Source of the DNA: Oscillatoriales cyanobacterium
GTDB taxonomy: Bacteria > Cyanobacteriota > Cyanobacteriia > CACIAM-69d
Direction: 5' to 3'
Assembly: GCA_004292515.1 (NCBI GenBank)
Contig: RDXB01000048.1
Span: forward strand, 1-42,127
DNA length: 42,127 nucleotides
The position numbers and the translations under genes are program-made. Position 1 is the first letter of the stretch; each line of letters begins with the position of its first letter. The notes under the pieces are model-generated. The model was not told the DNA's origin and searched no databases. It saw nothing but the letters and a program-made list of their open reading frames with translations. This document shows, one piece after another, positions 15,645-41,151 of this stretch.

Positions 15645-15787
15645 GAGGATGTCTGAAAAGTATCTTTCGGCCCGAACTAAGCACCAATAGTCGTAGCAGC
15701 AAGGGGCTTAAGCCCCTTGTTTCCGTCGATCAATGGAGCATGCAGAGAGCATGCAGAGTATCAACTTTGGCCTTTCAGGCATCCTCT
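15644..15787. mobile_element. Family A element, intact copy
   Basis: 144 bp with terminal inverted repeats: AGAGGATGTCTGAAAAG at the left and the near-inverse CCTTTCAGGCATCCTCT at the right. The palindrome CAAGGGGCTTAAGCCCCTTG is central, at 15700-15719. The same left arm (CGAACTAAGCACCAATAGTC) and right arm (GTCGATC.ATGG, AGTATCAA.CTTGG) recur at 33227-33503. It contains no open frame of note, so it is non-autonomous. The rest of the spacer to rpsU (15788-16056) shows no gene apart from the rpsU leader. Confidence 0.8.
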
Positions 15788-26755: not shown

Positions 26756-26761
26756 GGCCTA

Positions 26762-26895
26762 GGGGCTGTCGTTCAAGCAAGCTGAAACGGTTAATTTTCC
26801 ATGTCCCAATCGTCGTAACAAGGGGCTTAAGCCCCTTGTCCCCCACGAGCTGCTAACGGTGGAATCAGGGTTTTGGGCGATTTGACGATAGGCCC
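26762..26895. mobile_element. Family B element (TA-flanked), copy 2
   Basis: 134 bp flanked by TA (26760-26761 and 26896-26897). The left end GGGGCTGTCGTTCAA and the inverse of the right end GGGCCTATCGTCAAA agree at 11 of 15 positions. The palindrome CAAGGGGCTTAAGCCCCTTG lies at 26819-26838. It occupies nearly the whole gap between two convergent genes. Deleting it with one TA leaves the palindrome GGCCTAGGCC at the junction. Confidence 0.8.
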
Positions 26896-29800
26896 TAGGC
26901 CGCGCCGATCAAGTCGATCACGGTTTGCACGAGGGTGTCGTCTTGGAAGCTGGTTTTGGTTAAATAGGCATCGGCTCCGGCTTCTAGGCCGCGGATTCGA
27001 TCGCCCTCTTGATCTTTGTAAGAGACGATTGCGATCGGCAGGCTGTAAAGACCCGGATGCTTACGAATATTGGTCACCAGTTCAATGCCCGTCATGCGCG
27101 GCATATCCACATCGGTAATCAACAGGTCGTAGGGATGGTTGCGCACGGAATTCCAAGCGTCCATCCCATCCACCGCCACATCGACGTGATAGCCCTGATT
27201 TTCCAGAATTTTGCGCTCCATTTCGCGCACCGTAATCGAATCATCAGCAATCAGCACCCGTTTGCGCGATCGCTGCAACAGGGCCTCATGGGTGGGGGCC
27301 ACTTGTTTGGGGGTGGTGCTGTTGAGCAGGCGGTTAATCGATCGCACCAGGTCAGCCGTATCCACAATCAACACCAAAGACCCATCCTCACGTAGGGCAG
27401 CGGCGTTGATGTCTTGCACTTTGCCCAGGCGCACATCGAGGGGCCGCACCACCAAGTCCCGCTCGCCCAAAAAGCGATCAATCACCACTCCGTATTGATC
27501 CAGATCATCGCTAATCACCACCACGGAATAGGCATCGGGGGTGGCCGGTTCGCCCGCCAGTTCCAGCACTTGGTGGGCCGTGACGAGACCGACGTTGCGA
27601 TCGTCCATCACGAAATATTGGCGGTTTTCGACCATGGCGATCTCTTCCGGCGGCACGATCGCAATTTGGTCAATCCGCGCCAAGGGGAAAGCATAGGCCT
27701 CGCCAGCAATTTCCACCAATAATGTCCGCAACACCGACAGGGTGAGGGGCAACTGAAAATGAAAGCTCATGCCCTGGCCTGGCTGGGACATGGCCCGCAC
27801 GCTGCCGCCCACTTCCCGAGCCATGCTGCGGGCAATGTCGAGGCCCACGCCGCGCCCGGAAATTTCCGTGACTTGGGCAGCGGTGGAAAATCCCGGCAAA
27901 AAGATAAATTCCAGCAACTCTTCGGGCCGCATTTGCTCGACTAGCTCGGCGGTGGCCATATTTTTGCGAATAATTTTGGCGCGCAGGGCTTCGTAATCCA
28001 TGCCGCGGCCATCATCGGTGACCGTAATCGACAGCATCCCGCCGCGATGGAAGGATTCTAGGCGAATCGTGCCTTCTTCGGGTTTGTTGGCGGCCTGGCG
28101 ATCGGCGGGTAGCTCCAAACCATGGTCGACACTGTTGCGCAGGATGTGGGTGAGGGGCGCTTCCAGTTTTTTGAGGATGTCGCGATCAACCGGTGTGGCT
28201 TTGCCGACGATTTCAAACCGCACCCGTTTGCCCAGCTTGCGGGCCAAGTCACGCACCATGCGGGGAAAACCCTGCACTCCGTCGCCAAAGGGGCGCATGT
28301 GGGAAGCAATTACCTCGCGGTAGAGTCGATCGGACAGGTTGGCCGATCGCCGCGCAAACACTTCCAACTCATTCAGGCGATCGCTCAGTAAACCATTACA
28401 TTCATTGGCTTTGGCGCGGGTGGCCCGTAACTGCTCGGGCAGCAGGGGGTTGTTGGTGTGGGTGGCATCCTGCAACTGATCAAGGGCGCGGTTCAGTTCC
28501 TGTTGGCGACGCTTCAAAATCAGCAGCGAGTCGGCAAACAGTTGCAGCCAGTTGCTTTCGACGAGGGATTCACCCGCCAGCCCCATAATCCGGTTCAGGT
28601 TTTCGGCGCTGACCCGCACAACCCGATCGCTGGGCACTTCCGGCGAAATGGCTGTGGTGGGCGGCTCCGTGGTCTGGAGTCGGCCGGGGGGCGACTGGAC
28701 AAGGTGGGTGGCACTGGGGTCACCGGATCGATCGCTGGGGTGATCAGCCGATCGCTCCTGGGCTAGATCATGGGCTGGTTCATAGGCTGAATCATGCACT
28801 GGTTCATGGGCTGAATCATGGGAGCGATCGCTGGCTGAACCGCTGGAGTCGCCTTCTGGGGGCGAGGCAAGGGCGATCGGCGCTGAAACGGGAGGCGCAG
28901 GAGCCTGGGTCGCACCAGTTCGCAACAGGGCCAGCAACTGCTGGCATGTGGCTTCAAAATCTCTTTGGTGTTGATTGAGCCAATCTTGCACATTGGCTTC
29001 ATCTAACAACCGAAATCCCGCTAACAGATCTGTGCCCCGCAACAACCAATCCACCGCATCAGAATCGAGGGCGATCACCTGGTTTTGAGCCGCCACAAAG
29101 CAATCTTCCATCCCGTGGGCCAAGCCCACAGCCAGGTCAATGCCAACCAAACGCGAAGCACCTTTGATGGAATGGGCCGCACGCATCAGCACTTCCAAGG
29201 GATCAAGGGCATTGGGTTGCTCCTCCAAGCTCAATAACCCTTCCGTGAGAATGCCAACTTGGGCTTCGATTTCTAGGCGAAACAGGTCAAAAATCGAGGC
29301 ATCGGCCAAATCACTCGGATCGAGATTATTGGGATTAATTGCTGTGGGAGCAGGGAGCGAGAGGGCGATCGAGTCTTGAGTCTTTGGTGGTAAAGGTTCT
29401 GGATTTATTGAGGGATTTATTGAGGAATTTATTAGGGGATTTATTAGGGGATTGAGCGGGAGATTTATTGGAGAATCTGTTGGGAAATTTGTTGGGGTAG
29501 CTGTTGAGAAACTTTCTGGAGTTTGAGTGGGAAAATTCAGTAAAGAATCTGTTGGGAAATAGGCTGAAGCATCTGTCAATGACTGCGGGGATGATGGCGG
29601 GGCGATCAGATCGATCGGCGTGAGATCGTTCGCTTTAGGAATCCAGGCTGGAGCCAAGGCCGCCCCACTCAAAGAGGTCATCGGTGTAACATCCGTTGCG
29701 ATCGCCCCTCCCTGAGTCTGGCTCCATTGGGTAATTTCAAAAGCAGTGACCTGTAGCTCGGCAGCGCGATCGCGTAACCAAAGGCTCAGGTGATCTGGGG

Positions 29801-30188
29801 CGATCGTGCCCAGTTCGATCAACAACGCCGTGCCGCGCCACACATCATGAGGGATCAACGGTGTAGATGCACTGATAGCCGTGCTGGACTTGGGCTGCTG
29901 ACATAGGTTAGCCACTGCGCTGGCCAGTTGGGCAATGTCTTGCAGCTCCACCAAGGCCGCCACCGAAGCGATCGACCTTGCCGCCCGCCCCATGGTCGAT
30001 CGGCCCGCCTGGGATTGCCAATCTTGGCGCAGAAGTTGTAACCCATCTTGCAACCGGGCCGCTTGCCGAGCCATCTCATCACAAAACAATTCGGCCACCG
30101 ATTGAGCCGTTGATTGCTCGACAGGTTGTGCAGGGAAGTCTGGCTCAGAGGGTGACATGGATTCGGGTTCTGGCGCGCAATCGATCAT
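26895..30188 (-). CDS. CheA-type hybrid histidine kinase (Hpt-CheA-CheW-REC)
   Basis: 1097 residues. Residues 33-155 resemble an Hpt domain, but the phospho-His position is Arg (A-A-R71-S-I). A low-complexity Pro/Asn/Ile linker (211-265) follows, then an intact Hpt domain with H339 (A-A-H339-S-I-K-G-A), an acidic/His-rich linker (445-520), a dimerization region, and the ATPase with N-box H681-I-L-R-N-S-V-D-H-G, G1 D726-G-R-G-M and G2 G778-R-G-V-G-L-D. A CheW-like domain (about 815-955) precedes the REC domain (976-1095, phospho-acceptor D1026). It is the last gene of the chemosensory cluster. Such kinases act in pilus motility, phototaxis or Wsp-type surface signalling. Confidence 0.93.
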   Translation of the reverse strand: MIDCAPEPESMSPSEPDFPAQPVEQSTAQSVAELFCDEMARQAARLQDGLQLLRQDWQSQAGRSTMGRAARSIASVAALVELQDIAQLASAVANLCQQPKSSTAISASTPLIPHDVWRGTALLIELGTIAPDHLSLWLRDRAAELQVTAFEITQWSQTQGGAIATDVTPMTSLSGAALAPAWIPKANDLTPIDLIAPPSSPQSLTDASAYFPTDSLLNFPTQTPESFSTATPTNFPTDSPINLPLNPLINPLINSSINPSINPEPLPPKTQDSIALSLPAPTAINPNNLDPSDLADASIFDLFRLEIEAQVGILTEGLLSLEEQPNALDPLEVLMRAAHSIKGASRLVGIDLAVGLAHGMEDCFVAAQNQVIALDSDAVDWLLRGTDLLAGFRLLDEANVQDWLNQHQRDFEATCQQLLALLRTGATQAPAPPVSAPIALASPPEGDSSGSASDRSHDSAHEPVHDSAYEPAHDLAQERSADHPSDRSGDPSATHLVQSPPGRLQTTEPPTTAISPEVPSDRVVRVSAENLNRIMGLAGESLVESNWLQLFADSLLILKRRQQELNRALDQLQDATHTNNPLLPEQLRATRAKANECNGLLSDRLNELEVFARRSANLSDRLYREVIASHMRPFGDGVQGFPRMVRDLARKLGKRVRFEIVGKATPVDRDILKKLEAPLTHILRNSVDHGLELPADRQAANKPEEGTIRLESFHRGGMLSITVTDDGRGMDYEALRAKIIRKNMATAELVEQMRPEELLEFIFLPGFSTAAQVTEISGRGVGLDIARSMAREVGGSVRAMSQPGQGMSFHFQLPLTLSVLRTLLVEIAGEAYAFPLARIDQIAIVPPEEIAMVENRQYFVMDDRNVGLVTAHQVLELAGEPATPDAYSVVVISDDLDQYGVVIDRFLGERDLVVRPLDVRLGKVQDINAAALREDGSLVLIVDTADLVRSINRLLNSTTPKQVAPTHEALLQRSRKRVLIADDSITVREMERKILENQGYHVDVAVDGMDAWNSVRNHPYDLLITDVDMPRMTGIELVTNIRKHPGLYSLPIAIVSYKDQEGDRIRGLEAGADAYLTKTSFQDDTLVQTVIDLIGAA

Positions 30189-33199: not shown

Positions 33200-33226
33200 A
33201 CAGGTGGCGAATTCTGGGGGTGACTT

Positions 33227-33503
33227 AGGGAATGTCTGACAAGTACTTTCGGTGCGAACTAAGCACCAATAGTCGTGGCAGCAAGGGGCTTAGGGCGTGT
33301 CATCAAATGAGCTTGATTGGGGCTGGAACGACCAATTTTCCTAGCCCAACCGCCCTAGACAATTGGCTCAAGCCCCTTGCCCCTCACGATCAAGCAACGC
33401 AAGAATCAGGGTTTCAGGGATTTGATAACAGCCCCTATGCCCCTTGTTGATGTCGATCGATGGGGCATGAAAAGTATCAATCTTGGCTTTTCAGACATCC
33501 TCT
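33227..33503. mobile_element. Family A element interrupted by a family B element
   Basis: The outer ends match the family A copy at 15644-15787: GGAATGTCTGACAAGTA at the left and CTTTTCAGACATCCTCT at the right. The left arm runs through CGAACTAAGCACCAATAGTC to GCAAGGGGCTTA and stops at the middle of the palindrome; the right arm resumes at TGCCCCTTG. The inserted piece is the family B copy at 33293-33435. Confidence 0.82.
33293..33435. mobile_element. Family B element (TA-flanked), copy 3, nested
   Basis: 143 bp between TA (33291-33292) and TA (33436-33437). The left end GGGCGTGTCATCAAAT and the inverse of the right end GGGGCTGTTATCAAAT agree at 13 of 16 positions. Its own palindrome has decayed to TTGGCTCAAGCCCCTT (about 33363-33378). 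Confidence 0.82.
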
Positions 33504-33827
33504 TGTGGGTGTCTAGGGCGATCGAACGGTTTGTTTTAGTAACCACAAAACATTGGAAAATTCTTGGGAAATTCAATGTTCCAATGTCTCATGGGGTATT
33601 TAATGTTGGGGTTGGTGAGCGATCATCTGCAAGCGACGATCGCTCACGATTACCACTACACAGGCTCGACCCCACTTCCGGTTTTTACGAGCTGAATGAT
33701 CGCCATTCCATGAGCGCGGCCCCGCTGCAAACCTCTTCTAGCCGATCGCCCTAGCCCGAGTCAACGCTCGTTGGCAAAGCCCAGTGATGAAACTGATGCC
33801 AACGAGCGATTAGTTGCTGCCCTTGCT
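33504..33827. other. Spacer with two hairpins, one downstream of talB
   Basis: No gene. GTGAGCGATC / GATCGCTCAC pairs at 33615-33624 and 33638-33647. CGCTCGTTGGCA / TGCCAACGAGCG pairs at 33765-33776 and 33797-33808, just after the talB stop. The second may end or stabilise the talB transcript, although it lacks a T-run. Confidence 0.55.
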
Positions 33828-38831: not shown

Positions 38832-40808
38832 TTGAGCAAGGAATCCATCACGATCGGCCAACTGCTCGACAAGCGCTATCGCATTTTGCAAGTGCTTGGC
38901 TCTGGAGCCTTTGGCAAAACCTACTTGGCCGCCGACCTGCGCCGGCCGGGGTATCCCCAATGCGTCGTCAAGCAACTGCGCTTGCTGCGGCCCAACCCCA
39001 CCGCCGCCAAAAATGCCCACCGCCTGTTCCAGCGGGAAGCAGAAATGCTGCAACGTTTGGGCACCCATCCGCAAATTCCTCGGCTGCTGGCGTTTTTTGA
39101 GGAAAATGAGCAGTTCTACTTGGTCAAGGAATTTGCCCCCGGCCATCCCCTCTCGCGGGAACTAGTGGCGGGTGAGCCTCTGCCCGAACAGCGGGTAATG
39201 GCGATCATGGCGGAAATTTTAGAAATTCTGTCCTTTGTTCATGGCAACCGGGTGATCCATCGGGATATCAAACCCGCCAACCTGATTCGGCGCAGTGTTG
39301 ATGGGCGGTTGGTGTTGATTGACTTTGGTTCTGTCAAGGAAATTTTGCAAACTGACGGGGAATCGGCGGCGGCCCGGACGATCGCAGCGGGCACGCCGGC
39401 CTATATGCCGATCGAGCAGTTTTATGGCAACCCCCAGTTCAACAGCGACATCTATGCGGTCGGGGCGATCGCCGTTCAGGCCCTTGGCGGCCTGTCGTCG
39501 GAGGAACTTCAGGCCCTACGCGATTCCCAAGATCCTGTCAGCGGTCGGCTCAACTGGCGCACGAGTATCACCACCAGTCAAGGGTTTGGAGTTGTGCTCG
39601 ACAAGATGTTGCATCCCTCGTTCCAACAGCGCTATGCCACCGCTGAAGATGTGCTGGTGGACTTGTTGCCGCTGATGGGTTTGGGACCCGATGATGCGTC
39701 GTCCAATGCCGAGGCCGCGGCTTTACCCGAGGCGATCGATTGGGCCGGTCTGTGGCAGCGTTGGTGGCCCGGTGTTGCCAGCCTGGTGGGTTTGCTGGCC
39801 AGCAGCATGGTGTTGTGGCAGTTGGGCTGGCCGCAGTGGTTGATGTCTCAAGCCATTTTGTCGCGTTGGTCAGAGGTGCCCACCGACCTCACCGTGAACC
39901 GCAACACATCGGTCAATGAGCTAATCGGCATTGCTCGCATGGTGGAGGGGGATGCAGTGCCCACCGATCGCGCCTGGGACTACGGCAAGGCAATCTCCGA
40001 TGCGACCCAAGCCCTGAGTTGGCACAACAACACAAGGGCCTATTTCCTGCGTGGCGCGGCCTACTACTACAGCAGCAATTGGAATGCGGCCTTGGCGGAT
40101 TTTAACCAGGCCCTGCAACTCGAACCCGAAAACGCCACCGTGCGAGTCTATTTGGCGGCGACCCAAGACCGGCTAGGCGATTTGCAAAGTGCCCTCACCA
40201 GCTACGATCGCGCTCTCAAGGCGGCTCCTAACCTCAGTCCGGCTTATTTGGGTCGGGGGCTGGCACGGCTGGAACTGGGCGACGCGGCCGGGGCGATCGT
40301 TGACTTTGACAAGGTGCTGGGCCAACAGTCCGGTTGGGCGGCGGCCTATCGGGGGCGAGCTTTGGCCAAAATTCTCACGGGCGATCGCGATGGAGCCGTC
40401 AACGATAGTTCCCAGGCGATTCGCCTTGATCCCAACAGTGCCAGTGCTTACCAAGTGCGCGGCCGGGCTTACTTTGCCGCCAATAATTTGTCCTCGGCCC
40501 TGGCGGATTTGACCGTGGCGATTCGCCTCGATAGCAAAGATGCCGAGAGTTACTATTACCGTGCCCTGACTCGCCAAGCCCTGGGTGAACCCCAAGGCAC
40601 CCTGAGCGATTTGAACCAGGCGATCGCCCTGAATGAACGCTATGCCATGGCCTACCAGCAGCGGGGCTTGGCCCAGGTGAATTTGGGTAATCGGGCCCCG
40701 GCGGCGGCGGATTTTCGGCAGGCGGCGAAGTTGTGTCTCGATCGCGGTCAGCTCGATTGCTACGAAGCCGCGCGCAACGAACTGAGCAAGCTACAGGTCA
40801 CCCCCTAG
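38832..40808 (+). CDS. TPR Ser/Thr protein kinase, membrane-anchored
   Basis: 658 residues from a TTG at 38832, the only start that keeps the whole kinase domain (MSKESITIGQLLDKRYRI). All catalytic residues are present: G-S-G-A-F-G loop, K47, E69, H143-R-D145, K147, N150, D164-F-G, and A-Y-M-P-I-E-Q. A TM segment (about 313-332) divides the kinase from about seven TPRs (390-650), so kinase and TPRs lie on opposite sides of the membrane. The C-terminal segment (C-L-D-R-G-Q-L-D-C-Y) is shared with the upstream pseudokinase, showing duplication. Confidence 0.9.
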   Translation: MSKESITIGQLLDKRYRILQVLGSGAFGKTYLAADLRRPGYPQCVVKQLRLLRPNPTAAKNAHRLFQREAEMLQRLGTHPQIPRLLAFFEENEQFYLVKEFAPGHPLSRELVAGEPLPEQRVMAIMAEILEILSFVHGNRVIHRDIKPANLIRRSVDGRLVLIDFGSVKEILQTDGESAAARTIAAGTPAYMPIEQFYGNPQFNSDIYAVGAIAVQALGGLSSEELQALRDSQDPVSGRLNWRTSITTSQGFGVVLDKMLHPSFQQRYATAEDVLVDLLPLMGLGPDDASSNAEAAALPEAIDWAGLWQRWWPGVASLVGLLASSMVLWQLGWPQWLMSQAILSRWSEVPTDLTVNRNTSVNELIGIARMVEGDAVPTDRAWDYGKAISDATQALSWHNNTRAYFLRGAAYYYSSNWNAALADFNQALQLEPENATVRVYLAATQDRLGDLQSALTSYDRALKAAPNLSPAYLGRGLARLELGDAAGAIVDFDKVLGQQSGWAAAYRGRALAKILTGDRDGAVNDSSQAIRLDPNSASAYQVRGRAYFAANNLSSALADLTVAIRLDSKDAESYYYRALTRQALGEPQGTLSDLNQAIALNERYAMAYQQRGLAQVNLGNRAPAAADFRQAAKLCLDRGQLDCYEAARNELSKLQVTP

Positions 40809-40926
40809 TAGCGTGGCAAGCTGATTTGGATAGGTCAATACAAATGGCTGATACCGTTGCCCAATCGTTAGGCAGCAAGGGGCTTAAGCCCCTTGTTACG
40901 ACGACTGACTCGCAACGTTGACCCAG
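40805..40926. mobile_element. Family C palindrome-bearing repeat, copy 2
   Basis: 122 bp, inverted relative to the copy at 10387-10508 and equal in length. The palindrome CAAGGGGCTTAAGCCCCTTG is at 40876-40895. The left end overlaps the stop of the kinase gene. The remaining spacer to 41151 shows no gene. Confidence 0.7.
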
Positions 40927-41151
40927 CGAATTAAGGCAGCCGCACTACTGGGGCTGATTGTTCGATCGATCCTCAATTTCACGGCTGACCAACGAAAACC
41001 CATTCCAATTGGTTGCATCAGTTGATGGGATTGCGGAGGGCTGATCGCAGTCGCACAATCTCGATCCCAAATTCCGTTACCGGAGAACCTGCACGATTCA
41101 GAAATCCTCGTTTACCATCAACTGCAATTGACTGATTTGCTTGCCCCTGCC

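Follow-up and report, generated by a model that had tools for sequence, protein, structure and literature searches.

Nested insertion of a MITE at the central palindrome of another MITE, and recurrent insertion at the same palindrome, in a cyanobacterial genome

The window (the whole 42,127-nucleotide stretch that we analysed, which forms contig C84 in a draft cyanobacterial genome of 3.98 Mb, G000) contains a confirmed nested insertion at 33228-33502, in which a short element of one repeat family (B) lies within an element of another (A). The insertion point is the central TA of a palindrome, GGGGCTTAAGCCCC, and insertion of B-type elements at this palindrome recurs through the genome. We consider it highly probable that B is an IS5-family MITE which targets the palindrome, nests in the elements that carry it and renews its own target.

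Anatomy of the nested locus

The features of the locus, and the intact copy of A with which it was compared, are as follows.

33228-33502, plus strand: outer MITE, family A, interrupted; inverted ends GGGAATGTCTGACAAG / CTTTTCAGACATCCTC; TNA-type duplication
33228-33292, plus strand: left half of A, ending in GGGGCTTA
33291-33292, no strand: left TA of the target duplication
33293-33435, plus strand: inner MITE, family B, 143 bp; terminal repeats match at 13/16 positions
33436-33437, no strand: right TA of the target duplication
33438-33502, plus strand: right half of A, starting at TGCCCCTTG
15645-15786, plus strand: uninterrupted family A copy with an intact GGGGCTTAAGCCCC; flanks TGA/TAA

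B splits an otherwise full-length A, its ends being GGGCGTGTCATCAAAT and GGGGCTGTTATCAAAT, and the anatomy is as a preliminary description of this DNA gave it: a 143-bp B inside A, with inverted ends and a TA on both sides. The check proposed there, in silico removal of 33293-33437, produces GGGGCTTA joined to TGCCCCTTG in a 130-bp A of typical length (most A copies are 131 bp). This restored A is identical to the intact copy at 15645-15786 at 112/130 positions (86%), and the two differ in length because the 15645 copy has an internal repeat of 11 bp, with a single base making up the rest. The order of events that had been proposed, A before B at this site, is likewise supported. The claim that A is cut at the palindrome centre holds for the central TA but not for the AGCCCC said to follow it, as the outer A has one substitution immediately 3' of the TA (TGCCCC instead of AGCCCC). 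The outer duplication is also imperfect now, with TTA at 33225-33227 and TTG at 33503-33505.

Both elements have the features of MITEs. At 143 bp (B) and 130 bp (A) they are too short to hold a transposase gene, they have inverted ends, and they occur as dispersed copies with a target duplication (TA for B, TNA for A). The inner B is 97-99% identical to its nearest copies elsewhere in the genome and is a member of a young subfamily in which the palindrome at the element's own centre has decayed to TTGGCTCAAGCCCC.

Recurrence and target preference

Similarity searches, in which the best 40 candidates were scored, found at least 40 A-like and at least 40 B-like copies in the genome. The palindrome GGGGCTTAAGCCCC occurs 295 times (control 0) and GGGGCTTAGGGNNTGTCRTC, where the palindrome and B meet exactly, 75 times (reversed control 0), so the nesting is far from chance. 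B-type ends (TAGGGNNTGTCRTC) number 211 (control 2), meaning that GGGGCT stands directly before about 36% of the exact B ends in the whole genome (75 junctions vs 211 ends). Among 386 cyanobacterial genomes, the junction was found in just four, all of the same family: this genome, two congeners (28 and 8 occurrences) and one other family member (2 occurrences). As for the palindrome itself, two congeners have 257 and 110 copies, and one further genome of the family has 30.

Apart from these whole-genome pattern counts, our statistics were drawn from 842 kb of this genome, window included. Loose end patterns, which allow four mismatches, served for a rough look only because about 40% of random places match them on at least one side. 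The 842 kb hold 42 two-ended B-type elements, most of them about 147 bp including the TAs. Eleven lie within the palindrome with both halves present and 14 more have one half, whereas the palindrome accounts for 0.5% of the TA dinucleotides (up to two mismatches allowed and occupied sites added). For 11/42 against this background, the binomial P is about 2e-16, a value which treats insertions as independent, and this is not strictly true; wherever a nest has spread whole, the number of independent insertions is overstated. B-type elements are thus found in this abundant palindrome well above background, as is expected of REP-targeting mobile elements.

These results support the view that B prefers the central TA of this palindrome. 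The preliminary description had proposed this in a more general form, as a preference for hairpin centres. At sites outside the palindrome, YTAR is favoured, and the symmetry of these other B sites is 1.94 vs 1.56 at random TAs. However, the sample has 76 perfect TA-centred 14-bp palindromes, of which 70 match this sequence exactly or nearly and six have another sequence, so preferences for the sequence and for a hairpin are inseparable in the sample.

Junction counts could also arise by copying instead of target choice, if A[B] were a single composite that spreads whole. Congener G001 does have one A[B] composite on two contigs (C10 and C20; 97% identity over 255 bp) whose flanks are unrelated, and a nest can thus also move whole. 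As an explanation of the junctions in general, however, we judge this improbable: the hosts are of several kinds (A, B and possibly C) with differing arms, and the junction sequences differ from place to place. Moreover, the B copies of the window nest and of a nest on contig C46 are 99% identical, but the A halves around them are merely 66% and 74% identical. With the same TA occupied in both, these must be separate insertions, i.e., this TA has been struck at least twice.

Nesting and target renewal

Repeated choice of the palindrome by B, the reading that we prefer, extends to hosts other than A. Where both flanks of a central insertion could be recognised, the host was B in nine cases and A in five; nesting is thus not confined to A hosts but also occurs within B itself. 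In most of the 42 B-type elements, GGGGCTTAAGCCCC is present in exact or near form at offset 61-83, which is about the element's own centre. The inner B of the window counts against target renewal at this one site, because its central palindrome is decayed and the target was therefore not regenerated intact.

An automatic search found no depth-3 nests. In the two congeners (one genome per species compared), we did not find an empty site at the same locus; in neither of them is the transaldolase gene next to a counterpart of the chemoreceptor gene, and their intergenic DNA there gives no alignment. The empty site is seen at the family level only, as uninterrupted A copies.

Several other arrangements of these elements were seen. 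Two sequences, G000:C87 (L141) and G002:C19 (L134), are chimeras with the order A-left, B-left, palindrome, A-right, an order that would be expected if palindrome halves had recombined and a nested B had thereby lost its right half. At G000:C46:40896-41327, a single A copy contains two B-type elements head to tail, with a common TA at their junction. An A copy at G000:C67 (L143) has its palindrome-side half expanded into several tandem copies of GCTGCCACGACT. Finally, at G005:C34 (L193:852-2234), an A-ended IS5-family element has a B-type MITE directly at the TA of its right target duplication.

Transposase family

The preliminary description took the TA duplication as typical of IS630/Tc1-mariner transposases. 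A TA duplication by itself does not identify that group; IS427-like elements also duplicate TA. An IS630/Tc1-mariner-type origin of B is largely refuted, and we regard it as very unlikely even though B has a TA on both sides, as an IS630 element would (the trait is not exclusive to IS630), and this genome does have IS630-type (PF13358) genes. The PF13358 copy on contig C9, a candidate that we rejected, has ends (TAGACTTATAGCAGC...) unrelated to those of B, and no B-type ends were found near either PF13358 locus of this genome.

B-type ends instead enclose IS5-family transposases in relatives. In a genome of related genus g3 (G004, contig C10), an 866-bp element lies between the ends TAGGGGGTGTCGTC...GACGACAGCCCCTA and has two reading frames that match NF033580 (IS5 family transposase), PF13340 and PF01609 (DUF4096 + DDE_Tnp_1), and there is an AAAAAAG stretch where the two frames meet. 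This element is inserted exactly in GGGGCT-TA-AGCCCC. In a further genome (G005), B-type ends bound a decayed IS5-family transposase. B thus has its ends in common with an autonomous IS5-family element of a related genus, not of this genome.

For A, both ends and duplication are common to an autonomous IS5-family element: at G003:C110, A-like ends (GTGGATGTCTGAAAAG / GTGGATATTTGAAAAG) bound an 897-bp element with TAA on both sides. Of 28 end pairs of A copies, 23 are flanked by TNA at either end, and 17 of these 23 have an identical N at the two ends (P about 1e-6). Given the G004 and G003 elements and the TNA duplication of A, A and B are most likely both IS5-family MITEs. Neither this genome nor congener G001 yielded an IS5-type DUF4096 gene, and what ties A and B to such a transposase is thus the ends that they share with elements of relatives; the absence may be a real loss, or repeats may have collapsed in the drafts.

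Three-nucleotide insertion sites are a common feature of the IS1031 group of IS5 (PMC2516522). Duplication length alone suggests the IS427 and IS1031 groups, which are thus tentative candidates for these elements. Like IS5-family elements of the NF033580 (transpos_IS5_3) type, i.e., IS427/IS1031-like elements and their MITEs, the elements with A- and B-type ends have this transposase family; the B-type element has two frames separated by an A-rich stretch, and A has a TNA duplication. The system in this genome differs in that no autonomous copy was found in it.

Rather than mobile elements, the repeats might be structured RNAs or transcription terminators whose nesting is incidental, and an intact A does fold well as a single strand (z -5.4). 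We give this little credence: Rfam has no match at these places (its sole match in the window is a tRNA elsewhere), and terminal repeats, target duplications and dispersed copies are traits of transposable elements, with which a terminator role would be compatible in any case. The idea that the palindrome halves belong to B as long terminal repeats (CAAGGGGCTTAGGGC...) and are not its target draws on the GGGGCT found outside the TA at about a third of B ends, but it is scarcely credible because near-identical B copies start at the same TA at sites that have no halves, and the sequence beyond the palindrome runs on as A or another host element.

Proposed mechanism

We therefore return to B as a mobile element that targets the palindrome. 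B would be a non-autonomous IS5-family MITE, presumably moved by a DUF4096/DDE_Tnp_1 transposase with two frames, such as a relative still has. This transposase probably duplicates TA and favours YTAR and, above all, the TA at the centre of CAAGGGGCTTAAGCCCCTTG, which it may recognise directly. In the window, B landed in the palindrome inside an older A, itself probably an IS5-family MITE with a TNA duplication. B-type elements generally have the palindrome at their own centre, so each insertion would take away one landing site and add another, giving both B-in-A and B-in-B nests, some of which then travel as a unit on their outer ends.

A broader reading, which we offer tentatively and hold with less confidence, is that of a genus-level network of mobile elements built on one palindromic module. 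Three or more MITE families that differ in their ends would carry CAAGGGGCTTAAGCCCCTTG centrally, and B-type elements would insert there and bring a new copy with them. The landing site would thereby renew itself, and it may protect genes, as insertions would be drawn to elements that are already there.

Relation to known systems

Mobile elements at abundant palindromes, an IS in the palindrome of a MITE and MITE-rich cyanobacteria are all known already. IS elements that target REP palindromes include ISPpu9, ISPpu10, ISPsy8, ISRm19 and others (PMC1525189). The insertions described here are like them in being repeated insertions into an abundant intergenic palindrome. They differ in that the insert is mostly a MITE, one that regenerates the target by bringing the palindrome along in its own centre, and in that the palindrome is often inside other MITEs.

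A review (PMC10969869) cites IS1111 in QMITE2 of Coxiella, an IS that uses a palindrome in a MITE as its target, with two copies. The palindrome-in-MITE target is alike, but here there are dozens of insertions, B-in-B nests and a different transposase family. The same review cites Nezha as a cyanobacterial MITE, and 147 MITEs are known from Anabaena sp. 90 (PMC3542288), an example of how MITE-rich cyanobacteria can be. A and B resemble such cyanobacterial MITEs in being many, short, non-autonomous and mostly intergenic.

In the open-licence papers searched, we found no report of a MITE with its own preferred target at its centre, of a central palindrome common to MITE families with different ends, or of nesting at one. 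The palindrome string was not found there, and searches on nested bacterial MITEs yielded nothing relevant. If the proposed explanation is true, B would be a natural transposable element that prefers its own centre as a target and has hundreds of such sites available in a single genome. It would also make two ideas testable: that bacterial MITEs multiply without destroying genes by using self-targeting 'safe havens', and that new MITEs arise via nesting and recombination between palindrome halves.

Other elements in the window

Two further places in the window carry the palindrome.

26762-26895, plus strand: second B-type element; TA at 26760-26761 and 26896-26897
40879-40892, no strand: palindrome core within a copy of a third repeat family (C) with different ends

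Family C is present at about 40800-40985 of the window and also at G000:C46:103832, C49:59605 and C68:59267. Its ends are about AGCGCGGCTGCC... / ...TTGCCGCGCTAC, and its core is identical to that of A and B (CAAGGGGCTTAAGCCCCTTG), so the core is common to at least three families.

The second B-type element is inserted at AAGGCC-TA-GGCC and has an intact GGGGCTTAAGCCCC at its own centre (26822-26835). With its TAs (26760-26897) it lies between two ORFs, and its right TA appears to give the TAG stop of a neighbouring ORF (1097 aa, minus strand, 26895-30188); the gene may thus have been given a new end by the insertion.
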